DNA of 34,504 nucleotides from an uncultured Anaerolineae bacterium. GTDB taxonomy: Bacteria; Chloroflexota; Anaerolineae; Anaerolineales; Villigracilaceae. Location of the stretch: contig CAIWAX010000483.1 in assembly GCA_903910795.1 (NCBI GenBank), positions 1 through 34,504 of the forward strand. Direction: 5' to 3'. Made by a program: the position numbers and the translations under genes. Of the stretch, positions 3,424 through 31,466 are shown in pieces; the first letter of the stretch is position 1; each line of letters opens with the position of its first letter. Below the pieces are notes generated by a model, which worked only from the letters and a program-made list of their open reading frames with translations, ran no database searches and was not told where the DNA came from.

Positions 3424-5973
3424 TTATCTTTTTGAATAGGTGTTATAGACGGAACGGACCTTGAAAGCGGCCTGGGCTCTGGCCAAATCCCAACCATCTG
3501 GCAGAGGCGCACTGATGGTGATCGTTTTTTTAGCGGGCAGATCAAAATAATTATCTGTGAAAACCACATCCGCACCGCTCAGGCTGCATTCTACAAGGCG
3601 GGCCAATGATTGCGATGACAGTTCGATCAACAGTATGCACCCTGAGGGTTGGTTTTCTTTAATGGATAAATTGGAGATGATCTGGGGATCCACCAGGGAT
3701 ACATGTTTGGTTGGGACAAAAAATGCCGTTTGCAAAGCCAGGCGGGTTTCAACCTGCCACAATTCAGCCGTAAAAACAAGTTCCCTACGCGTATCACCAT
3801 CCAAATATTTCGAGAAATCCAGGCTTTCGACCGCCAACACACCGCCTGGCTCAACATGCGCCGCTTTTTCACCAGAAACAAGCGCATTGCCATCCAGTGT
3901 CGCCAGTGACCAGGAAACCGAACCATCCCAGGGGTTGAGCAGATCGCTGCTGATAAAAATGGACTGATGGGGCGAATCATCCTCGATCGAGAGCATCAAA
4001 GGCGCATAAAAGCGCCGGGCGGCATAATGCAAAGCCTTCCAGCGGCCGAAATAGTCCAGACTGGCCCAGGAAGCCACCGGCCAGCAGTCATTTAACTGCC
4101 AGTACAGGGTTCCAGAAACGCGATCAGTGTGCCTGCGCCAGTGTTCGACACCATACCGGATACCCTCAGCCTGTAAAACCATACTGAGGTAAACCAGAGA
4201 ATCGAAATCCATGGGCAGGCGGAAGGTATCCAGCATTTGTCCCACCATCAGAGAATTCCCGCTGTTATTCTTCTGATGCTGTTCCATGATATACGAAGTC
4301 ATATTCCAATCAGACTCTTCGGCGTAGGTGCGAATTGTCTCCAGAGGTGGCAGGGCCTGAAAGCCAAACTCGCTCATGAAGCGCGGATATTGTTTGCGAT
4401 AGGCGGTAAAGGGTTTGCGCCCGTGCCAGACATCCCAATAATGCGCGTCACCCTGGGTCTGTCCATTTGGGTTCTCGAAGGGCGCATCAGAGGAGGGCGA
4501 GCTGGGCCAATAGACATGATCCGGGTCCTCCGCTACACACCACTCTTTCAGCGTATGATGGAAGAAACGATCATACGAGTCTTTCAACGGCTGATGCTCC
4601 GGCTGGGTCCAGCCCCACTCAGCCCAGCCCTGTTCCATCTCATTGTTGCCGCACCACAGCGCCAGGCTGGCACGGTGGCGAATGCGCTGCACATTTTCAA
4701 TGACTTCAACGTGTAAATTATCCAGGAATTCCTGGTCGTCGAGCGGGTAAATACTGCAGGCAAAGATAAAATCCTGCCAGATCAAAATTCCATATTGATC
4801 GCAGAGATCATAAAAAGTCTCATCCTCGTAAAAACCGCCGCCCCAGACGCGCAGCATATTCTGGTGCGTTTCGGCTGCCGAGCGGATTAAACCTTCCAGT
4901 GATGCTCGAGTCAGGCGGGTGGGAAAAGAATCGGCTGGGATCCAGTCAGAGCCTTTGGCAAAGAATGGGTGTCCATTGACAACGAAGGTAAACGAGCGCC
5001 CCCATTGATCCGGCTCCTGCCGCAGTTCGATGGTGCGTAAACCAAGCTGGTAATCTTTTTCATCCAGAACCGCATAACTACCCTGCGGGTAACTACCCTG
5101 TGGGTAACTACCCTGTGGGCCGGCCTGGCTCAGTTTCACATTTACTTTGTAAAGTGGCTGATTCCCCAGGCCATTTGGCCACCACAACTGCGGGTTTTTG
5201 ATCTCAATGGACAGAAGATTTTCAGCTTCGGAATTCAAAGCAGATGAAGAGGTGAAGACTTCACCGTCAGGCGCGGTCACCTGCAAAATCGCCGCAAGTC
5301 CGGTAGTCCAGTTCTCGACAGACAAGCCAGCCTGCACCCGGACAACACCCGCGTTGTGAAATTGGCGCAAATGGACTTCTGACAAGCGTGCAGAATCAAA
5401 TGCCTCCAGACGAATATCCTTCCAGATGCCGGCAGGGGGAAGTTGAGGTCCCCAATCCCAGCCGAATTGGCAGGGCGCTTTACGAATATGCGGACCACCG
5501 ATGATGGCTTGCGAAACACCGGGCAAGGCGCGTTCAGTCTGCTTTTGAGCAGCGACTCTCACAACTGAATCAAAATAGATCGATAATTCGTTACTGAACT
5601 TATGGGTACTTTCCATTCCATCCGCCATTAGCAGGGGCTTTACATCCCACCGGTATTGGCGAAACATGTTTTCTGTGTTTCCCAGCAAATGGCCATTCAG
5701 TGTCACCCTGGCAAGCGTATCCAGACCATCACAAACCAGCCAGACGTGTTCATGCTTTAATACTTCGGGGTGAACTTGAAATGCGTATTTATATTCCCAA
5801 TCGGTCTGCGCCACCCAGGCAACCCGAATTTCATTATCCCCCACAAAAGGATCGGGGATACGGCCGAGCGCCAGTAAATCCGTATGAACACCACCCGGTA
5901 CGCTGCCAGCCAACCACTCGTCTGTACCAGACTGGCGAAATTGCCAGGCGCCTGTCAAAGATTGCTTCTGCAT
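3424..5973 (-). CDS. Glycoside hydrolase family 2, beta-mannosidase-like
   Basis: 849 aa; SDWIPADSF, MLRVWGGGFYEDETFYDLCDQYGILIWQDF, LWCGNNEMEQGW, RFMSEFGFQALP motifs typical of beta-mannosidases. Confidence 0.92.
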   Translation of the reverse strand: MQKQSLTGAWQFRQSGTDEWLAGSVPGGVHTDLLALGRIPDPFVGDNEIRVAWVAQTDWEYKYAFQVHPEVLKHEHVWLVCDGLDTLARVTLNGHLLGNTENMFRQYRWDVKPLLMADGMESTHKFSNELSIYFDSVVRVAAQKQTERALPGVSQAIIGGPHIRKAPCQFGWDWGPQLPPAGIWKDIRLEAFDSARLSEVHLRQFHNAGVVRVQAGLSVENWTTGLAAILQVTAPDGEVFTSSSALNSEAENLLSIEIKNPQLWWPNGLGNQPLYKVNVKLSQAGPQGSYPQGSYPQGSYAVLDEKDYQLGLRTIELRQEPDQWGRSFTFVVNGHPFFAKGSDWIPADSFPTRLTRASLEGLIRSAAETHQNMLRVWGGGFYEDETFYDLCDQYGILIWQDFIFACSIYPLDDQEFLDNLHVEVIENVQRIRHRASLALWCGNNEMEQGWAEWGWTQPEHQPLKDSYDRFFHHTLKEWCVAEDPDHVYWPSSPSSDAPFENPNGQTQGDAHYWDVWHGRKPFTAYRKQYPRFMSEFGFQALPPLETIRTYAEESDWNMTSYIMEQHQKNNSGNSLMVGQMLDTFRLPMDFDSLVYLSMVLQAEGIRYGVEHWRRHTDRVSGTLYWQLNDCWPVASWASLDYFGRWKALHYAARRFYAPLMLSIEDDSPHQSIFISSDLLNPWDGSVSWSLATLDGNALVSGEKAAHVEPGGVLAVESLDFSKYLDGDTRRELVFTAELWQVETRLALQTAFFVPTKHVSLVDPQIISNLSIKENQPSGCILLIELSSQSLARLVECSLSGADVVFTDNYFDLPAKKTITISAPLPDGWDLARAQAAFKVRSVYNTYSKR
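5075..5119 (-). repeat. 3 x 15-bp tandem repeat (PQGSY x3) inside the GH2 CDS
   Basis: TAACTACCCTGCGGG, TAACTACCCTGTGGG, TAACTACCCTGTGGG head to tail; encodes PQGSYPQGSYPQGSY. Confidence 0.95.
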
Positions 5974-6320: not shown

Positions 6321-7193
6321 TTAAACGGTTGTAAGATCCCACTCCTCGTAAATCTTTGGAACATCGTTAATCAGGCGCTTGGTGTAAGGCTCCCTTGGAT
6401 GCAAAATTACATCATCGGGAGACCCACTTTCAACAAATTTCCCGTGCTCCATAATAAACACCTGGTCTGAGACATAATACGCCAGACCAATATCGTGAGT
6501 GATGAAGATCAGGGTCATGCCTGTCTCATCGCGCAGTTTCATCAACATGTCTAGGATGGTGGCGCGAGAACAGGCATCGATCATGGAGGTGGGTTCATCC
6601 GCCAGCAGGATCTTGGGTTTGAGCAGGAAGATGCGGGCAATCATTAAGCGCTGCATTTGGCCGCCGGAAAGCTCAAACGGATATTTGTTGGTCATTTCCT
6701 CATATTTCAGGTTGACAAAACTGCAAGCCTCGGTCATCATCTCCACTTTTTTCGCCTGTGGAAGCCGGCGCCCGCCACGCATATTGATGCAATCCAAAAG
6801 CACAGCATCGATCTTGTTAAAGATGTTGTAGGAAGAAAAAGGATCCTGGAAGATGGCCTGGATATTTTTCCAATATTCCTGTTTCTTGCTGTAAGAGCTG
6901 ATATCACGCTTCTTGCCCTGGAAGTAAATATCGCCTTCGGTGGAGTTGATCAGCCCCAGCAGCATTTTTGAAAGTGTAGTCTTGCCGCTGCCCGATTCTC
7001 CGACGATCGAAACAACTTCGCCCTCGTAGAGATCCATATCCACTTTATTCACGGCGACATTTTTTTGGCGGCCAAAACCAAATTCCTTGGTCAACCCTTT
7101 AACACTCAGGCAAAGCTTCTTTCCCACAGGGTTATTACCCACAGGGTTATTACCCACAGGGTTATTACCCACAGGGTCATTATTAGTTGGCAT
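6321..7193 (-). CDS. Oligopeptide/oligosaccharide ABC transporter ATP-binding protein (OppF/DppF type)
   Basis: Walker [10 protein letters not shown], signature [10 protein letters not shown], Walker [10 protein letters not shown]; 290 aa. Confidence 0.92.
7123..7182 (-). repeat. 4 x 15-bp tandem repeat (PVGNN-type) at the N-terminus of the ABC ATPase
   Basis: CCCACAGGGTTATTA x3 followed by CCCACAGGGTCATTA; encodes (N)[19 protein letters not shown]. Confidence 0.96.
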
Positions 7194-13882: not shown

Positions 13883-15331
13883 CTATTTGGAAGGAATGGA
13901 GGGGAAAATCTGAACATTCCCGGCGGCAGGGCCGCGGGCAATCATGCCTACCGGCCGAGCAAGCAGCGATTCTATCTTTTGAATCACTTCCATCTCACCC
14001 GCAGGGTACATATATGTACCCTGCGGGTTTGCTCCACATGTTTCCAGGATTGGCTCAACTGCAAAAAGTGCTCTTGTAATCTGCTCCCGTTGTTCGAGGG
14101 AAAGGAAGCGCGGGAGCTGGAAGCTTTTCAGAACCCCGCCGGTCACCTGTGCGTTGATCAACATGCTTTCAATGACATGGTATCCTGCATACCCTGCACA
14201 ATATTTAAAAAGTTTCAGGCGCGAAATCATATCCATGTGAGTGATTGCCAGAGCATCCACCCCGCCCATCACCCCAAGCGCATATCGCGCAAGAACTGCA
14301 TCAAACCAGCCATAGCGTACAAGGCCCTGCCATTCATTTTGTTTATTATGATCGGAAACGCTGAAGGCGAATACATCTGTCTCGGTTGGCAGCGGCCCAG
14401 GGCCATGGCGGACTGCATGGGAGCGCAGCACCCCAATTTTAAACACGCTTGCATCTGGAACCATTTCATTTATCAGATGAATGGCATTCTCCGCGGTACA
14501 GGTAGACCAGGTTGTGTATGGATGAAAACCAGCAGCGGCATCCAGCAGTACGCCCTGGGCGCCCTCAAATATTGCAGTTTCTGCTGCTCCAAGCCACTGC
14601 GCCAAAACCGAATCGGGCACTACCAGACCAAGTTCACAAATCCGGGCAATGGATGCCATCCAATGATCTATCACATCCCCATTCTCGAAAATTGCCCATT
14701 CCCTGGTAATTGAAGCTCCGAGCGATTTATCCATGCAAAATTCAAGCAGTTGTTGGTATTTTAGTTCACGAATAGATCTCAATTTCTGGCGCAGTTTGGT
14801 CGGGTTTGCCAGATCACCTGCCATTACCTGATTTTCAGGATGCGACAGCGCATCTTCGACAGCCTCACCCACTCCCACCCCGCAACTTCCATGGCGCTCC
14901 GCGCCCCGTACCATTTCCCGAATACGGTTGGCGGCCTGGTGAAAAGGCGTTATAACAAGCGCCTGGTCACTCAACCGCAGCCGGGAAAAAACATCACGAA
15001 CACCCTTCCCTTCGAGTACCTGCCCTTCAACGAGTAAGGCGCCGGGGTGAATCACAACATCTCTGGAAAGGTAAGTTCTGACTCCAGGGATGAAAGTTCC
15101 AGAACCAAATTGAGAAAACGTATGGTGGCGCCCATCCGGGGTAATCACATTATGGCCGGCCTGGGCGCCGCCATTATAGCGAACTACGATACTGGATTTA
15201 AAGTGACGGACCAGATAATCTGTCAGCAAACCCTTTCCAGCATCCCCAAAACCAAGATCCACAATAATGTATGCGCGCAAAGTGAAAAAGCTCCTGGCGA
15301 CATCGCTGAGGTGAGAGTTATGATTTTGCAA
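13883..15331 (-). CDS. Divergent adenylosuccinate synthetase (PurA)-like protein
   Basis: VDLGFGDAGKGLLTDYL ... VVRYNGGAQAGHNVI ... EGAQGVLLDAAAGFHPYTTWSTCT; PurA fold with altered P-loop-like motif; 482 aa. Confidence 0.8.
   Translation of the reverse strand: MQNHNSHLSDVARSFFTLRAYIIVDLGFGDAGKGLLTDYLVRHFKSSIVVRYNGGAQAGHNVITPDGRHHTFSQFGSGTFIPGVRTYLSRDVVIHPGALLVEGQVLEGKGVRDVFSRLRLSDQALVITPFHQAANRIREMVRGAERHGSCGVGVGEAVEDALSHPENQVMAGDLANPTKLRQKLRSIRELKYQQLLEFCMDKSLGASITREWAIFENGDVIDHWMASIARICELGLVVPDSVLAQWLGAAETAIFEGAQGVLLDAAAGFHPYTTWSTCTAENAIHLINEMVPDASVFKIGVLRSHAVRHGPGPLPTETDVFAFSVSDHNKQNEWQGLVRYGWFDAVLARYALGVMGGVDALAITHMDMISRLKLFKYCAGYAGYHVIESMLINAQVTGGVLKSFQLPRFLSLEQREQITRALFAVEPILETCGANPQGTYMYPAGEMEVIQKIESLLARPVGMIARGPAAGNVQIFPSIPSK
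13997..14028. repeat. Perfect 32-bp palindrome: two 15-bp units head to head inside the PurA-like CDS
   Basis: ACCCGCAGGGTACATATATGTACCCTGCGGGT equals its own reverse complement; encodes NPQGTYMYPAGE. Confidence 0.97.
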
Positions 15332-16271: not shown

Positions 16272-17333
16272 TTATGCACCCTGCGGGCCGGATGGCATGA
16301 CGATCGGCATAAACTGTGGCGGCCCAAAGACCTCCCTGGCAATGATGCCAAGTTCGTCATGAATCGTCCAGGCATTTAAATCTAATTTATCAGCGTAATC
16401 TAGCCGGGCAATTCGCTGCACGATGTCAGCCAGTTTTGCAGGAACTGACGCAGGTAAAAATCCAGTTTCAGGATCTCCGCCCAAAATCGCAGCGATACAA
16501 CGGGCACTCATCACAAGATCCAATTTTTCTGATATGTACCCTGCGGGCAGGGTCGAATGAAGATTGATCGTTTTGGGATAGAAAGGTTCAGAACCCTCTG
16601 AAATGGCGGGTAGTTTTGCCCCTAATTTACCAGCAGAGCTGTACCCTACAAGCCGTACACCGTGTTCATGCTCCTGTACGAGTATATGCTCCGGTAATAC
16701 CGCTCCGTGAGCCATTCCGGAAGTATGTAAGAAGGAAAGAATTTCGAGAATTCGCCTCCAGACCCAGACAGAAGCCTGAGGCGGAATCCCGCTTGGATAA
16801 GCCTGGATAACATCTTTAAAAGTATGGGTAAATCCACCCTCCCGACGGAATATGCTCACCCGATTGCCAGCCAATGATCCAGATGAAATATTGCCGTGGA
16901 TTACGGGTTGAGGAATAAGCCTTGTAAAAACTTCTGCGCCGGGCGCATCGCTATGTTGAAGAGTCTGGAGAGTATCCCACTCATTATCAAAAAGGAGCAC
17001 ATGCGCTGGATCACGCAACAACTTCAAGATAACAAGCTCGGTGGGCCAGCGCGCGCGCCTGGCGGAATATACATCTGAGATGGCGCCGTGCGCAATACAT
17101 TTATCCAACGACCAGTGGCCGTTGCCGATTGAAACCAGGGACGAAGTGTGAAAGAACTCTGGAGAATTCCAGGCCCGGAATGCCTCTCGAAATCTCGCCG
17201 CCGAAACCGAGCCTTCATCCAGGCGAACAGTAGCTCCACAATAAGGACAGATAATCGACCGCGCAAATTGATGCGGCGTGAGGGGTGCATTACATTGTGG
17301 ACACATTATCGCACGTTCCATTTTTTCAACCAT
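16272..17333 (-). CDS. Zinc-ribbon protein with protein-kinase-like (probable pseudokinase) domain
   Basis: CPQC..CPYCG N-terminal ribbon; kinase-like GAISDVYSARRARWPTELVILKLLRD; catalytic-loop position reads HGAVLPEHILV and the DFG position VGYSSAG. Confidence 0.72.
   Translation of the reverse strand: MVEKMERAIMCPQCNAPLTPHQFARSIICPYCGATVRLDEGSVSAARFREAFRAWNSPEFFHTSSLVSIGNGHWSLDKCIAHGAISDVYSARRARWPTELVILKLLRDPAHVLLFDNEWDTLQTLQHSDAPGAEVFTRLIPQPVIHGNISSGSLAGNRVSIFRREGGFTHTFKDVIQAYPSGIPPQASVWVWRRILEILSFLHTSGMAHGAVLPEHILVQEHEHGVRLVGYSSAGKLGAKLPAISEGSEPFYPKTINLHSTLPAGYISEKLDLVMSARCIAAILGGDPETGFLPASVPAKLADIVQRIARLDYADKLDLNAWTIHDELGIIAREVFGPPQFMPIVMPSGPQGA
16273..16287 (-). repeat. 15-bp unit forming the C-terminus and stop of the pseudokinase gene
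   Basis: TATGCACCCTGCGGG; encodes PQGA followed by the stop. Confidence 0.85.
16533..16547 (-). repeat. 15-bp unit (PAGYI) within the pseudokinase CDS
   Basis: TATGTACCCTGCGGG; protein context STLPAGYISEKLD. Confidence 0.9.
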
Positions 17334-17376
17334 CCTTAACGTAATGACAAACTAACCATTCAATAGGGCCCTGTCA

Positions 17377-17413
17377 TACTGAACTTACATTTGCCCTGTG
17401 GGTGGGTACTTTC
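17377..17413 (-). repeat. 37-bp inverted repeat, left copy, contains a 15-bp unit
   Basis: TACTGAACTTACATTTGCCCTGTGGGTGGGTACTTTC; exact reverse complement at 18557-18593. Confidence 0.95.
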
Positions 17414-17429
17414 TATTATGATACAACAA

Positions 17430-17444
17430 TATGTACCCTGTGGG
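17430..17444 (-). repeat. 15-bp unit, intergenic
   Basis: TATGTACCCTGTGGG. Confidence 0.85.
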
Positions 17445-17629: not shown

Positions 17630-18553
17630 GTGACCGCGGATATTACTGCCTTACGTAACGCGCTAATCGATGAAATCATCCGCGCTGTGGGTCTGCCCCT
17701 AAACGCCAGACTGCCTCGGTTCCTGTTAGCCAAAATATTTCACGGGCCAATCGAGGAGTTTTCCAGCAGCGGCGCAACTTTCGATCAAATGGTTGCCGAT
17801 GAGGGATTCGAGAAAGCAGCAGCCTGGCTGTTACCCCGGGCTTGCTCAAGCGTAACTGCGCATGGAACAGAGCACATCCCAGCGCGAGGCCCCTTGCTCA
17901 TCATTGCCAACCATCCAGGGACATTTGATGTCCTGCTGATTGCATCCTGCATGAACCGCGATGATATCAAAATCATCACCAGCGATATCGTCTTTTTAAA
18001 GAATCTGCCAAATACCTTTACGCATCTCATTTTCCGCGCCCGCACAAATGACATTTATAGCCGTATGACCGCAATTCGCGCAGGTATCCGCCATCTGCAA
18101 AGTGGTGGGGCCTTGATTCTCCTGGGTAGCGGGTTACTCGATCCTGATCCGGAAATCTCTGCGCTGGCAGAGAAGAACCTTGAGCATTGGTCTCCCTCAA
18201 TTGATTTATTTTTGGAAAAGGTACCCGAGACGAATATTCTCGTCACAATCGTGAGTGGCATGCTTTCCCGCAGTTGGAGCGATCATCCAATTACCTGGTT
18301 GAGACGCGCTGAATGGCGGAAACACTTACTGGCAGAGGTCGGACAGGTGGCTCAACAGCTTTTATTCCCCGGCAGCCTGTACCTGACACCGCATATTAGT
18401 TTTGCCCAGGCTGTAGGTATAGCCGAATTACAGCGTGAAAGCAGTTCTGGTCGAAACTTGCCAGCCATTATTACCCGCGCAAAAACTTTAATGGCACAAC
18501 ATCTGGACCGAATCACTTATGTACCCTGCGGGTCGGCAGAAGCAGGGAACTGA
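17630..18553 (+). CDS. PlsC-like 1-acyl-glycerol-phosphate acyltransferase family protein (GTG start)
   Basis: LLIIANHPGTFDVLLIA (HX4D motif); AAGGAG upstream of the GTG at 17630. Confidence 0.8.
   Translation: MTADITALRNALIDEIIRAVGLPLNARLPRFLLAKIFHGPIEEFSSSGATFDQMVADEGFEKAAAWLLPRACSSVTAHGTEHIPARGPLLIIANHPGTFDVLLIASCMNRDDIKIITSDIVFLKNLPNTFTHLIFRARTNDIYSRMTAIRAGIRHLQSGGALILLGSGLLDPDPEISALAEKNLEHWSPSIDLFLEKVPETNILVTIVSGMLSRSWSDHPITWLRRAEWRKHLLAEVGQVAQQLLFPGSLYLTPHISFAQAVGIAELQRESSSGRNLPAIITRAKTLMAQHLDRITYVPCGSAEAGN
18518..18532 (-). repeat. 15-bp unit near the C-terminus of the acyltransferase
   Basis: TATGTACCCTGCGGG encoding YVPCG, 6 residues before the stop. Confidence 0.9.
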
Positions 18554-18556
18554 ATG

Positions 18557-18593
18557 GAAAGTACCCACCCACAGGGCAAATGTAAGTTCAGTA
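18557..18593 (+). repeat. 37-bp inverted repeat, right copy
   Basis: GAAAGTACCCACCCACAGGGCAAATGTAAGTTCAGTA, reverse complement of 17377-17413. Confidence 0.95.
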
Positions 18594-18602
18594 AGAGCTG
18601 AA

Positions 18603-18647
18603 TATGTACCCAGTGGGTACGTACCATGCGGGTACGTACCCTGCGGG
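18603..18647 (-). repeat. 3 x 15-bp tandem array in the leader of the exporter ATPase gene
   Basis: TATGTACCCAGTGGG, TACGTACCATGCGGG, TACGTACCCTGCGGG. Confidence 0.93.
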
Positions 18648-18677: not shown

Positions 18678-19421
18678 ATGGAAGAATTGCCGTCGAACCC
18701 CACACACCCGGCCCTGCCCGCAGGGTACGTAATCCAGGCAACAGGAATAAAGAAGGTTTACAAACGCGGCAGGGAAGAAATTGTAGCCTTATGGGATACC
18801 AACCTGAGCATCCTGCCCGGGGAATTTATCGTCATGATCGGCCCAAGTGGCAGCGGCAAATCAACCCTGTTGCACTTGTTGGGAGGGATTGACCGGCCCA
18901 CCCGAGGTGAATTGCGCGTCAATGGGGTTGACCTGATCACCGCCAACGAGGATGCTCTGACCCGTTTCCGGCGTGACAACATCGGGTTTGTTTTCCAATT
19001 CTATAATCTATTGCCCTCACTCAACGCCCTGGACAACGTCATCCTGCCTCTACTGGCAAAAGGGATGAGTTGGAAAGCCTCCCGGGAGCGTGGGGCGGTT
19101 GTGCTCGAGCAGGTTGGCCTGAGCCACCGCCAAAAGCACACGCCCAGCCAGCTTTCTGGCGGAGAACAGCAGCGCGTTGCCATTGCGCGCGCCATGGCGC
19201 TCGAGCCGCGCGTCATCCTGGCCGATGAACCAACTGGCGACCTGGATAGAGCCTCTTCCAACAGCATTATCAACTTGATGGTTGATCTCAAACAACGCCT
19301 GGGGGTGACCTTCATTGTTGCCACCCACAACCTGAACCTGCTCCAGGTGGCTGACCGCTCGTATGAATTAACAGATGGTCATCTCAACCGCATGTCCAAC
19401 GGACCCGCAGGGTATATATAA
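18678..19421 (+). CDS. ABC transporter ATP-binding protein, MacB/LolD type
   Basis: Within ORF 18519..19421; ATG at 18678 behind AGAGG. Walker [36 protein letters not shown]. Confidence 0.92.
18717..18731 (+). repeat. 15-bp unit (PAGYV) near the N-terminus of the exporter ATPase
   Basis: CCCGCAGGGTACGTA; context [12 protein letters not shown]. Confidence 0.9.
19404..19418 (+). repeat. 15-bp unit (PAGYI) as the last five codons of the exporter ATPase
   Basis: CCCGCAGGGTATATA directly followed by TAA. Confidence 0.88.
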
Positions 19422-21679: not shown

Positions 21680-22441
21680 ATGAAAAAGAGGATAACAATA
21701 TGCCTGTCTCTACTTGTGATGGCTATTTTGGCCTGTGGTCTGCCAACTTCCGGTCTTCCAGGCGGCAACCCGCTGGGCGGCAATAATGCCGCCCAGCCGG
21801 TCAGCCTCTCGAAGGGTTTGGCCAGCCTCAATAGCTACCTGGCCACCTTCTCAATCAAGACCAGCGGGCCAGACCCGGCAGATTCTTCAACAATTGTGTA
21901 TGAAAGCCAGCGTTCCCAAAAACAGGATGCCCACTATACCCGTATGACATCCACTCAGGTAAAAAAAGGGGCGGATAGCCCGCAGGGTAATGATAGCGCG
22001 GGCGAAGTCTACCGCATCGGGAATGACCAATGCACCAAATCGGGCGACAAATGGAGTTGGACAAGTATGCCCCCCAACGAGGCAGAAATGCTAAATCTGA
22101 CCATGAACGTGTTTGATATCACGCCCATGATCGATAACCCGACCTTTGTGGCGAATGAGACCGTCAATAATATCCCCACCAAACACTATTCATTTAAGGT
22201 CACCGGATTGGGAGTGAAATCCGGGGCGAATGTGACCGCCAATCAGGGCGATTATTGGCTGGCGGTCGATGGGCAATACATTGTCAAATACTCACTGGTG
22301 GTTGAAACAGTGGTGGATCCTAAAACCAGCATCATCCACATGGAAGTGTTGATTGATGTCAAGAATATTAACCAGCCAGTCAACATCGCCTTCCCGCAAG
22401 CCTGCCTGGACGCAAAAGCGGCGGCCACACCTGTGCCATAA
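21680..22441 (+). CDS. Lipoprotein, paralogue A
   Basis: Lipobox LVMAILACG; GGAG ribosome-binding site; homologous to the next CDS over its whole length. Confidence 0.85.
   Translation: MKKRITICLSLLVMAILACGLPTSGLPGGNPLGGNNAAQPVSLSKGLASLNSYLATFSIKTSGPDPADSSTIVYESQRSQKQDAHYTRMTSTQVKKGADSPQGNDSAGEVYRIGNDQCTKSGDKWSWTSMPPNEAEMLNLTMNVFDITPMIDNPTFVANETVNNIPTKHYSFKVTGLGVKSGANVTANQGDYWLAVDGQYIVKYSLVVETVVDPKTSIIHMEVLIDVKNINQPVNIAFPQACLDAKAAATPVP
21979..21993 (+). repeat. 15-bp unit within lipoprotein A
   Basis: CCCGCAGGGTAATGA, context DSPQGNDSAG. Confidence 0.75.
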
Positions 22442-22464: not shown

Positions 22465-24237
22465 ATGAAAAACAGGATGGCAATCTTCCTACCCGCAGGG
22501 TACATATCTCTACTTGTGATGGCGATGTTGGCCTGTAGCCTATCGACCTCTGTCACTCCGGGAGGAAACCCACTGGGTAATAATAATTCCGGCCAGCCGG
22601 TCAGCCTCTCGAAGGGTCTGGCCAGTCTCAATAGTTACCGGGCCACCATTACCATCAAAACCAAGGGCCCGGACCCAACAGATTCCTCAGCCATCGTATA
22701 CGAAGCTCAGCGCTCTCAACAGCAAAATGCCCGCTACACCCGTACAACCTCCTCTCAAGTCAAAAAGGGAGTGGAGAGTTCTGGCAGCAACGCTGACGAA
22801 GTCTACCGTATCGGAAATGACCAGTGCACCAAATCGGGTGACCAGTGGAGTTGGACGAGCATGCCCGCCAACGAGGCTGAAATGATGGATCTGAGCCTGA
22901 ACGTGTTTGATCCCACCCCCATCATTGATAACCCGACCTTTGTTGCCAACGAAACGGTCAATAATATCCCCAGCAAACATTACACCTTTAAAGTCAGCGG
23001 GCTGGGAGATAAATCCGGAGCGAAGGTGACCTCCAACCAGGGCGATTACTGGCTGGCGGTCGATGGGCAATACATCGTCAAATACTCCCTGGTGGTCGAA
23101 ACTGTCGTGGATACGAAAACCAGCATCGCGCACATGGAAACGTTCATTGAAGTCAAGGATATTAACCAGCCGGTCAGTATCGCCTTCCCACAAGCCTGCA
23201 AAGATGCGGCTACGGCCAAGCCCCTGTCTCCCAATCAAAGTCCTCAAACGCCCACTGACATCCCGGCTGTAATTCCAACCCGTGCGCCCACTGACGTCCC
23301 TGTAATTCCAACTACAGTGCCGAATCCCACCCAGGACTCAACCACCGGCGGATTTGCGGGTTCGTGGGATACGAAGTACGGAGATATGACTTGCACTGTC
23401 GTTGGTGAAAACGTGAACTGTACGTATACCCATAACGCCGGTAGAGTCGAAGCTTTTTTGAATCCTGACGGGAGGTCGCTGGAGGGCAGTTGGTTTGAAG
23501 CCCCCACCTATAAGCCACCCGCCCACGCAGGCAAAATGGTCTGGAGCCTTTCCGCGGATGGAAATTCTTTCACCGGCCAATGGTGGTACGGGCCGGCTGG
23601 CGATGGGGGTATGTGGACAGGCGCCCGAAAAACGGGTTCAGCCTCAACGAATAGCGGATCGGCACTTTTTGAGGATGATTTTTCAACCCCAAATAAAACA
23701 ATCTGGCCGGAGGATAGTGATGAAAACCATTTCAGGGGGTTCTCTGAAGGTGGCAAATATGGAATTACTATCTTGAATCCCGGTAAAATTGCTGTAGCGA
23801 TTCCAAGTGTTCCCTTAAACGCAGAGACCCTGACGGATGTCGTGGTTGAATTTACAGCTACAATCGTCGACGGCTGGGAAAGTGACGCTGGTTATTACGA
23901 GGTGGGCTGCCGCCGCACAGGAGATGGTGGGTATGCTGTACTTTTTTATAACGGTTATTATGCCGTGGAATACGAAAATGCCAAAGCAAATATCTCCTTT
24001 CTTAAAAGCAAATGGGTAAAGACTACGGCCATTCAACAGTATGATAATCGCGTCAAGGTAAGCTGTATTGGCAGCACCATTACGGTGTGGGTCAACGACC
24101 AACTGCTGGTTCAAGTCAGTGATCCACAAGCGCGCGCCAAAAGCGGATTTGTATGGCTGGGTGCTGGGGCCTTTGATAAGCCCTCTCCCAACGGGGTAAA
24201 AGTATTATTTGATGATTTCAGGGAGTCCATCCCATGA
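22465..24237 (+). CDS. Lipoprotein, paralogue B with extra C-terminal domains
   Basis: Lipobox LVMAMLACS; N-terminal ~250 aa matches paralogue A; Pro/Thr linker then a beta-rich C-terminal domain (DDFSTPNKTIWPE...VLFDDFRES). Confidence 0.87.
   Translation: MKNRMAIFLPAGYISLLVMAMLACSLSTSVTPGGNPLGNNNSGQPVSLSKGLASLNSYRATITIKTKGPDPTDSSAIVYEAQRSQQQNARYTRTTSSQVKKGVESSGSNADEVYRIGNDQCTKSGDQWSWTSMPANEAEMMDLSLNVFDPTPIIDNPTFVANETVNNIPSKHYTFKVSGLGDKSGAKVTSNQGDYWLAVDGQYIVKYSLVVETVVDTKTSIAHMETFIEVKDINQPVSIAFPQACKDAATAKPLSPNQSPQTPTDIPAVIPTRAPTDVPVIPTTVPNPTQDSTTGGFAGSWDTKYGDMTCTVVGENVNCTYTHNAGRVEAFLNPDGRSLEGSWFEAPTYKPPAHAGKMVWSLSADGNSFTGQWWYGPAGDGGMWTGARKTGSASTNSGSALFEDDFSTPNKTIWPEDSDENHFRGFSEGGKYGITILNPGKIAVAIPSVPLNAETLTDVVVEFTATIVDGWESDAGYYEVGCRRTGDGGYAVLFYNGYYAVEYENAKANISFLKSKWVKTTAIQQYDNRVKVSCIGSTITVWVNDQLLVQVSDPQARAKSGFVWLGAGAFDKPSPNGVKVLFDDFRESIP
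22492..22506 (+). repeat. 15-bp unit (PAGYI) in the signal peptide of lipoprotein B; absent at the same site in paralogue A
   Basis: CCCGCAGGGTACATA between codons CTA and TCT; paralogue A has CTG-TCT contiguous. Confidence 0.95.
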
Positions 24238-24300: not shown

Positions 24301-24539
24301 GTAACTACTCAGCCATGTCATTGTGAGCGCTCTCCAGCGAGCGTGGCAATCTCCTCACCGGAAGCAGGGATTGCCACGCCGCCACACCTGCCCCTTGTTT
24401 CACCCCTTGCTTCACCCCTTGTTTCACCCCTTGTTTCACCCCGGTGCTCTTCCGGGGCTGCTCTTCCGGGGGTGTCCTTCGGGAAAGAACAAAAGCGGCG
24501 GCTCGCAATGACAATTTCGGAGTATGGCTGAGTAGTAAC
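24301..24539. mobile_element. Non-autonomous MITE-like element (IS66-type ends), 239 bp
   Basis: Terminal repeats GTAACTACTCAGCCAT / ATGGCTGAGTAGTAAC (15/16) flanked by the perfect 8-bp duplication TGCAGTTC (24293-24300 and 24540-24547). Confidence 0.85.
24391..24438. repeat. 4 x 12-bp tandem repeat inside the MITE
   Basis: CCCCTTGTTTCA / CCCCTTGCTTCA / CCCCTTGTTTCA / CCCCTTGTTTCA. Confidence 0.95.
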
Positions 24540-25904: not shown

Positions 25905-26882
25905 ATGTCTTTAAGTCTTAGTGGTATTTCTCTCACATCCAATCCTGTCGAAGAAAAGCATGTCAAAGTCCTGGTGCTTGGCTCAGGCCCGGCCGGATTG
26001 ACAGCGGCTCTTTACGCTGCCCGCGCGGAGCTGGAACCGGTGGTTCTGACTGGTACTGAGCTGGGCGGGCAGGCAGCCCTAACCCATACCATCGAAAATT
26101 ACCCTGGTTTTCCCGATGGCGTGGGCGGCTCTGAGCTTGGAGAACTTTTTCAAAAACAGGCTGAACGCTTTGGCGCAACTGTCGAATTTGATACCGCCGA
26201 CAGTGTTGACCTTTCTGAACGACCCTACAAGGTAACAACCGATAACGGCGTGTATCTGGCGGATAGCCTGATCATCGCCACTGGCGCACGCTCAAATCAC
26301 CTGGAAATTCCGGGCGAAATTAAATTAACCGGCAAGGGTGTCTCTTACTGCGCCACTTGCGATGGCTGGTTCTTTAAAGAAAAGAGGGTTGTGGTGGTGG
26401 GCGGTGGCGACAGCGCGATTGAAGAGGCCCTCTTCCTGACCCGTTACGGTTCTTCTGTGACAGTCATTCACCGGCGCGAAAGTTTGCGCGCCGGAAAAGT
26501 ACTCCAGAACAGGGCTTTTTCCAACCCCAAAATCAAGTTTATCTGGAACTCGGTTGTGACCGAGGTGGTTGGGAATGAAAAAGTAACCACTTTGAAGCTT
26601 AAGGATACCCAGACAGGGCTTGAGTCTGATCTGGAGGCAGACGGCCTTTTCATCTTTATCGGGCATACGCCCAACACACAGATGTTCAAGGGCCAGTTGG
26701 AGATGGATGAGCTGGGCTACATACAGGCCAACCAGTACATGGAAACCAGCAAACCTGGTGTGTTTGTGGCTGGTGAAGTAGCCGATTCTCACTTCCGTCA
26801 GGTGATCACATCGGCTGGGATGGGCGCTGCCGCAGCGATCCAGGCTACCCAGTTCCTCGAAAAAGAAACTGTGCTTTCTTGA
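25905..26882 (+). CDS. trxB: Thioredoxin reductase-like flavoprotein
   Basis: GSGPAGLTAALYAARAELEPVV, redox motif CATCDG, VVGGGDSAIEEALFLTRYG. Confidence 0.92.
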   Translation: MSLSLSGISLTSNPVEEKHVKVLVLGSGPAGLTAALYAARAELEPVVLTGTELGGQAALTHTIENYPGFPDGVGGSELGELFQKQAERFGATVEFDTADSVDLSERPYKVTTDNGVYLADSLIIATGARSNHLEIPGEIKLTGKGVSYCATCDGWFFKEKRVVVVGGGDSAIEEALFLTRYGSSVTVIHRRESLRAGKVLQNRAFSNPKIKFIWNSVVTEVVGNEKVTTLKLKDTQTGLESDLEADGLFIFIGHTPNTQMFKGQLEMDELGYIQANQYMETSKPGVFVAGEVADSHFRQVITSAGMGAAAAIQATQFLEKETVLS

Positions 26883-27061
26883 TGGAAAGTACCCATAAGT
26901 TCAGTATTTCCGGTTCTGCCGGTTTGGTTTTTATTACAATCTTTTAGATATTTTGTGACTTAAACGACTGTCCTAAATCAACATTTGAATTAAAATTCAA
27001 GCACTCCCGGGAAAAACTGTGTTTTCGGGAGTATTGTTCGTAACTCAAAAAAGGAGGAGTT

Positions 27062-31197: not shown

Positions 31198-31267
31198 ACA
31201 AAAAAAGATTATACCATGCTAAAAAGAGGAAAATTGGTGCTGCCCGGCAAAAATGCTTAGATAATTC

Positions 31268-31466
31268 GTAACTGCTCACGGGGTGGGTGCTTTTTGGCAA
31301 GAGCCTATCCCCGCTAAGAACATGCGGGGTGCGGAGCAAACCATCGAAATTTAGTTCATTTACCCACATTTTTTCCGAATGGAAAGTACCCACGATTTGC
31401 TCCCGCAAGGGCATCGGGACGATGTTAGCAAATCGTTCAGTATGACGGAACATGGTGAGCAGTTAC
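31268..31466. mobile_element. Non-autonomous MITE-like element (IS66-type ends), 199 bp
   Basis: 12-bp perfect terminal repeats GTAACTGCTCAC / GTGAGCAGTTAC flanked by the perfect 8-bp duplication GATAATTC (31260-31267 and 31467-31474). Confidence 0.9.

Follow-up and report, generated by a model that had tools for sequence, protein, structure and literature searches.

Two adjacent lipoprotein genes in an uncultured Anaerolineae bacterium of the Villigracilaceae (contig CAIWAX010000483.1; the whole stretch analysed, 34,504 nucleotides, is called the window here) differ near their starts by exactly 15 bases, and the locus raises the question of what these bases are and how they came to lie in one gene of the pair. 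The two genes, lipoproteins A and B (Table 1), are tandem paralogues with 79% identity across their common part as judged by protein search. Lipoprotein A reads ATATGCCTG/TCTCTACTTGTG and lipoprotein B reads ATCTTCCTA/CCCGCAGGGTACATA/TCTCTACTTGTG (a slash marks the bond at which the 15-bp unit sits or would sit). An earlier note had read CCCGCAGGGTACATA, encoding PAGYI, at 22492-22506, and the letters match that reading exactly; its further statement that the unit is the sole local difference in length holds for the first ~100 bases of both genes, the start-to-start spacing of A and B being 785 ahead of the unit and 800 past it. A separate 6-base difference occurs further along the pair, and lipoprotein B has a C-terminal extension of ~340 residues that is not in lipoprotein A.

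Table 1. The lipoprotein pair and the 15-bp units of the window, with strand and setting.
Feature	Position	Strand	Setting
Tandem array, 3 units (CCCRCAGGGTAGTTA)	5075..5119	-	+15 residues in beta-mannosidase (GH2); gap region versus solved beta-mannosidases
Tandem array, 4 units (CCCACAGGGTTATTA)	7123..7182	+	Opposite strand, N-terminus of ABC transporter ATPase; NNPVG repeats
Unit, first of head-to-head pair	13998..14012	+	Adenylosuccinate-synthetase-like gene; own-strand C at -4
Unit, second of head-to-head pair	14013..14027	-	Own-strand C at -4
One-mismatch unit (CCCGCAGGGTGCATA)	16273..16287	-	3' end of gene 16272-17333; unit end is the stop codon
Unit, in frame (PAGYI)	16533..16547	-	Within gene 16272-17333
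Unit (CCCACAGGGCAAATG)	17388..17402	-	Within a copy of the 24-bp repeat S1
Unit (CCCACAGGGTACATA)	17430..17444	-	Intergenic
Unit	18518..18532	-	3' end of gene 17630-18553
Unit (CCCACAGGGCAAATG)	18568..18582	+	Within a copy of the 24-bp repeat S1
Tandem array, 3 units	18603..18647	-	Upstream of ABC ATPase gene
Unit, in frame (PAGYV)	18717..18731	+	Near ABC ATPase N-terminus
Unit, in frame (PAGYI)	19404..19418	+	ABC ATPase C-terminus
Lipoprotein A, empty paralogue	21680..22441	+	Empty site ATATGCCTG/TCTCTAC, between 21708 and 21709 region
Lipoprotein B, filled paralogue, 590 aa	22465..24237	+	
15-bp unit CCCGCAGGGTACATA	22492..22506	+	In frame, signal peptide of lipoprotein B, adds PAGYI; missing from paralogue A and 7 orthologues

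Taken by themselves, A and B are compatible with either direction of change, and the unit could be ancestral, with a later deletion from paralogue A and from relatives. A protein search over 151 genomes of the family found lipoprotein orthologues in other genera, and PAGYI is absent at the N-terminus in all seven of the orthologous genes inspected (five genomes, two other genera), that of G104 reading MKKRMVIFLSLLVMMVLAC. At the DNA level the site reads GCCTG/TCTCTACTTGT in A, TTCCTG/TCTCTACTTGT in G104, which belongs to another genus, and TCCTA/CCCGCAGGGTACATA/TCTCTACTTGT in B; since A and G104 are both empty, the duplication came first and B acquired the unit later. That B had received a discrete insertion following duplication was what the earlier note had proposed, with PAGYI in orthologues of A or in outgroups as the sign of deletion from A instead. 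None carries it, a result that favours insertion, and deletion from A is rejected because PAGYI is missing from the paralogue and from every orthologue inspected. Against an ancestral unit there is also the gene coaX, empty in 12 of 12 relatives, and the near absence of the 15-bp family from relatives, so that this alternative has become exceedingly improbable. The same note had remarked on a TA at either side of the unit, and here the letters are correct but their meaning is not: the right TA is the unit's own end, and the left TA lies in CTA where A and G104 have CTG, so a G has become A there, either at insertion or later.

A dispersed family in one lineage

The 15-mer of lipoprotein B is far from solitary. 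With up to three mismatches allowed, CCCGCAGGGTACATA has 19 matches in the window where 0.74 are expected, and 16 exact copies occur in the genome (an assembly of 496 contigs, 92% complete) against 0 of the reversed control. A survey of all CCCRCAGGG heads brought to light a second subfamily with CACATG beside TACATA, and the consensus of the family is accordingly CCCRCAGGGYANNTR, of which the genome holds 168 perfect copies (reversed control, 0) and 371 copies with at most one mismatch (reversed control, 23). It is clear from these counts that the recurrence is not due to chance. The unit occurs in both orientations between genes, within other repeats and in gene interiors; of the 121 perfect copies sampled, 65 fall within open reading frames of at least 200 codons, on both strands and in all phases. 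Neither of the two common consensus forms has a stop in any of the six frames, and, as 15 is a multiple of three, a gene that receives a unit gains five residues and stays open. Units of the same tandem array have a common tail, which differs from array to array, and the arrays therefore probably arise afterwards by local duplication.

The distribution among relatives is strikingly uneven. The exact 15-mer CCCGCAGGGTACATA has no copy in 40 relatives, ten of the same genus included, and in an order-wide draw perfect CCCRCAGGGYANNTR matches number 0-2 in three other same-genus genomes and in most of the remaining genomes, with 5-9 in a few; the TA-type pattern of the unit occurs 0-2 times per genome across the family. 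Four genomes of the same family and other genera (G121, G166, G131 and G011) have 5-9 perfect CCCRCAGGGYANNTR matches with a control of 0, which may represent a small or an old branch of the 15-bp family. As far as tested, the burst of the unit is confined to this lineage. A literature search on SDR-like repeats in Chloroflexi/Anaerolineae found nothing on the 15-bp unit.

One conceivable origin of such a motif is at the protein level, through selection or codon usage that favours PAGYI- or PQG-type peptide repeats. YPQG-type protein repeats with similar DNA do exist in Rhodococcus and the Competibacteraceae; a tandem-unit scan of genome contigs returned protein-driven repeats in these two groups only, and the scan of viral contigs gave no match. 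Yet in the present genome it is the DNA and not the peptide that is conserved, six frames being used (PAGYI, PQGTY, THRAH, YVPCG, MYPAG and CALW), and the units sit in unrelated proteins and between genes, so that a protein-level cause can scarcely be entertained. The unit is very probably a dispersed mobile insert.

Target, junctions and anatomy of the unit

Precise, scarless and target-directed insertion of a tiny two-palindrome unit is demonstrated by the flanks of single copies, by empty sites at several loci and by the pattern of bases within the unit. Flank statistics were taken from the 93 single copies without mismatch that lie in 1.06 Mb of the genome (about a fifth of it), a portion chosen largely for carrying units, which biases copy density and not flank composition. 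C stands at -4 in 74 of the 93 (p ~2e-26), a purine at -1 in 80 and A or T at +1 in 77. The C at -4 is present in every reading phase and is thus not explained by codon usage; it is already there in most empty orthologues, and at those sites it belongs to the target and not to the element. Insertion is non-random, at a loosely conserved target with C at -4, a purine at -1 and A/T at +1 (CNRR/W). The two units that lie head to head at 13998-14027 occupy the site CTCA/TTTG, a bond that offers C at -4 on both strands. The TA-target model with which the lipoprotein site had seemed compatible does not survive these data, as TA stands left of 3 of the 93 single copies, the coaX site is CCTG/ACAGG, no target site is duplicated and relatives have TG at the lipoprotein site. 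Around single copies no consistent signal was found of a target-site duplication of 2-6 bases or of direct or inverted flank repeats; direct flank repeats at k = 6 reach z ~2.7, and neighbouring lengths do not share this value.

Filled and empty sites can be compared at several other loci. The unit in coaX (contig C99) encodes an additional PAGYI, and 12 relatives, nine of the same genus, have an exact 15-bp gap in its place. The empty site is GACCTG/ACAGGC, with no base duplicated or lost, and the gap can be placed without ambiguity, as the adjoining flanks match neither end of the unit. The identical five-residue gap is present at the position of PAGYI in a solved type III pantothenate kinase. 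Exact 15-bp gaps are likewise seen at L064:8841 (in G010, G004 and G008) and at L062:2393 (in G004 and G010), and L062:7878 is probably another clean empty/filled site (G001 and G008), by our own judgement of a looser alignment. Within the genome itself, the 24-bp repeat S1 is empty in 40 copies (CCCA/TAAG) and carries the 15-bp unit at the identical bond in 9, although these nine may be copies of one event. An HtrA-like protease has an insert, PQGTY, inside an otherwise conserved GSGF...GYIVTNNHV stretch, the position of the gap being inexact, and this protease, the ATPase termini and PEPC (L064:13205) are compatible with empty sites but too diverged for exact placement of the gap.

The unit itself is built of two abutting mini-palindromes. 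Positions 10 and 15 covary (CG 72, TA 38, TG 6, CA 5; z ~50 versus shuffles), and positions 4 and 10 are only weakly linked. The last six bases, with Y10 paired to R15 and A11 to T14, form a mini-palindrome YA-NN-TR that abuts the mini-palindrome CCC-RCA-GGG, and it is the 10-15 covariation together with A11/T14 that identifies the tail as such. Subfamily history could contribute to part of this covariation; position 4 is mixed in both subfamilies, whereas 10-15 is not. The same head is found with longer palindromic tails in CGCTTTGCG, CGCTTCGCG, CGCACTGCG and CGCAAAGAACGCG, which represent few independent events; CGCACTGCG is an 18-bp insert in a MITE-like repeat (five filled copies versus four empty), and the 18-bp and 22-bp forms share the head and have palindromic tails of their own. 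The single-strand folding energy of the unit is no better than that of shuffles. A circular 15-nt dumbbell intermediate was considered as the basis of the 10-15 pairing and set aside, a linear element of two palindromes being simpler given the palindromic-tailed 18-bp and 22-bp forms.

How the unit may move, and what it resembles

In all likelihood the 15 bases in lipoprotein B are one copy of a lineage-specific, non-autonomous and very small mobile repeat, in whose movement a single-stranded DNA step would be the conjectural part. Elements of the IS200/IS605 type move by peel-and-paste, inserting 3' of a short target without duplicating it, and have folded ends and a right end that resembles the target. 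The 15-bp unit, too, inserts 3' of a short specific target with no target-site duplication, and there is a likeness between its right end (C-R-T-R) and the left target (C-N-R-R). Together with the mini-palindromes and the one-sidedness of the target, these traits point to peel-and-paste of the IS200/IS605 type or to a similar ssDNA recombinase, by which the unit would be mobilised in trans as folded single-stranded DNA. Such a mover is put forward tentatively, with somewhat less than even confidence. Differences from IS200/IS605 are that no Y1 transposase or guide pairing was identified and that the unit is too short to hold two separate folded ends of the usual size.

A rival reading, that the unit is a very short REP-like element spread by a RAYT/IS200-type Y1 transposase missing from the 92%-complete assembly, would account for the lack of target duplication, the short one-sided target, the palindromic structure and the likeness of right end and target. 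A PF01797 search of that assembly, however, found no RAYT/IS200 transposase; its one match, a 565-aa protein, was rejected as a RAYT, as it looks like a response regulator by eye and has counterparts in relatives without the unit. The unit also lacks the GTAG/CGTC tag of REPs and falls below their 20-40 bp (PMC3733652), and REPs are mostly extragenic; this reading is possible but doubtful. A templated process, for example addition of the unit by a reverse transcriptase from a short template RNA, or capture of small DNAs at breaks, would fit the tandem arrays of exact units, and reverse transcriptase genes are present in the genome. Same-genus genomes that lack units nevertheless have these genes equally often or more often, and as they are not specific to this genome a reverse transcriptase was dismissed as the partner; the strong C at -4 speaks against random capture, and the tails common within arrays fit local duplication. 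We consider a templated origin improbable. A further alternative is a previously undescribed recombination system, neither RAYT nor IS200, that copy-pastes a folded 15-nt unit after CNRR/W with single-base precision and no duplication. This is rather unlikely, but if true the unit would rank with the smallest known pieces of mobile DNA, and would be one that, being open in six frames and a multiple of three in length, writes five-residue peptides into genes without inactivating them.

Several families of short repeats invite comparison. The small dispersed repeats (SDRs) of cyanobacteria, reportedly 21-27 nt long, are like the 15-bp unit in being tiny, single as well as tandem, and situated within and between genes and in other repeats; like it, they encode nothing and have no known mover. 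The unit for its part has many dispersed copies, single and in tandem, that lie in genes, between them and in other repeats, and it has filled and empty sites; set against the reported SDRs, it is shorter, has a defined target (CNRR/W) and a palindromic tail with covarying bases, shows exact empty sites in orthologues, and differs in lineage and sequence. REPs and REPINs are short and palindromic, and their movement is attributed to an IS200-like RAYT acting in trans (PMC3116915, PMC3733652), REPs being 20-40 bp long with a GTAG or CGTC tag (PMC3733652). Neither tag is present in the unit or its flank profile, about half of its copies are in genes, and it is not filed as a REP because it is smaller and untagged and no RAYT was found. 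The Rickettsia palindromic elements, palindromic inserts of ~150 bp that lie in frame within unrelated genes (PMC10969869), have the in-frame habit in common with it but are ten times longer and unrelated in sequence, and their length sets them apart. The unit is best read as an unusually small SDR/REP-like non-autonomous element. This genome is a tractable case for studying the spread, in bacteria, of repeats that are too short to code for anything: it has well over 100 near-identical 15-bp copies, there are unit-free genomes in the same genus, the empty sites are exact, the target is defined and the palindromic end covaries. It also illustrates that mobile DNA can add exactly five residues to conserved proteins (the lipoprotein signal peptide, CoaX, the HtrA-like protease, beta-mannosidase and the ABC ATPase), and five-residue gaps relative to relatives need not be ordinary slippage.

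Other repeats of the genome

The window and the other contigs hold further repeats. A second dispersed family, S1 (GGAAAGTACCCATAAGTTCAGTAT, 24 bp), lies at 5592-5616 (-) and 26882-26906 (+) and on many other contigs, singly and in long tandem arrays, for instance at several contig ends. A 44-nt inverted pair (95%; 17374-17417 and 18553-18596) flanks an acyltransferase-like gene at 17630-18553, each arm being an S1 copy that contains a 15-bp unit. The palindrome CGATTTGCTWAGCAAATCG replaces TAAG in ~13 S1 copies, with a net gain of 15 bases, and also occurs elsewhere. A MITE-like repeat with the ends GTAACTGCTCAC...GTGAGCAGTTAC, found at 872-1013, at 31265-31332 and on many contigs, is a mosaic in which S1, the CGATTTGCTWAGCAAATCG palindrome and head-plus-tail inserts are nested as modules. 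Between genes, at 24391-24442, there are 4.3 copies of a 12-bp tandem repeat, CCCCTTGTTTCA.
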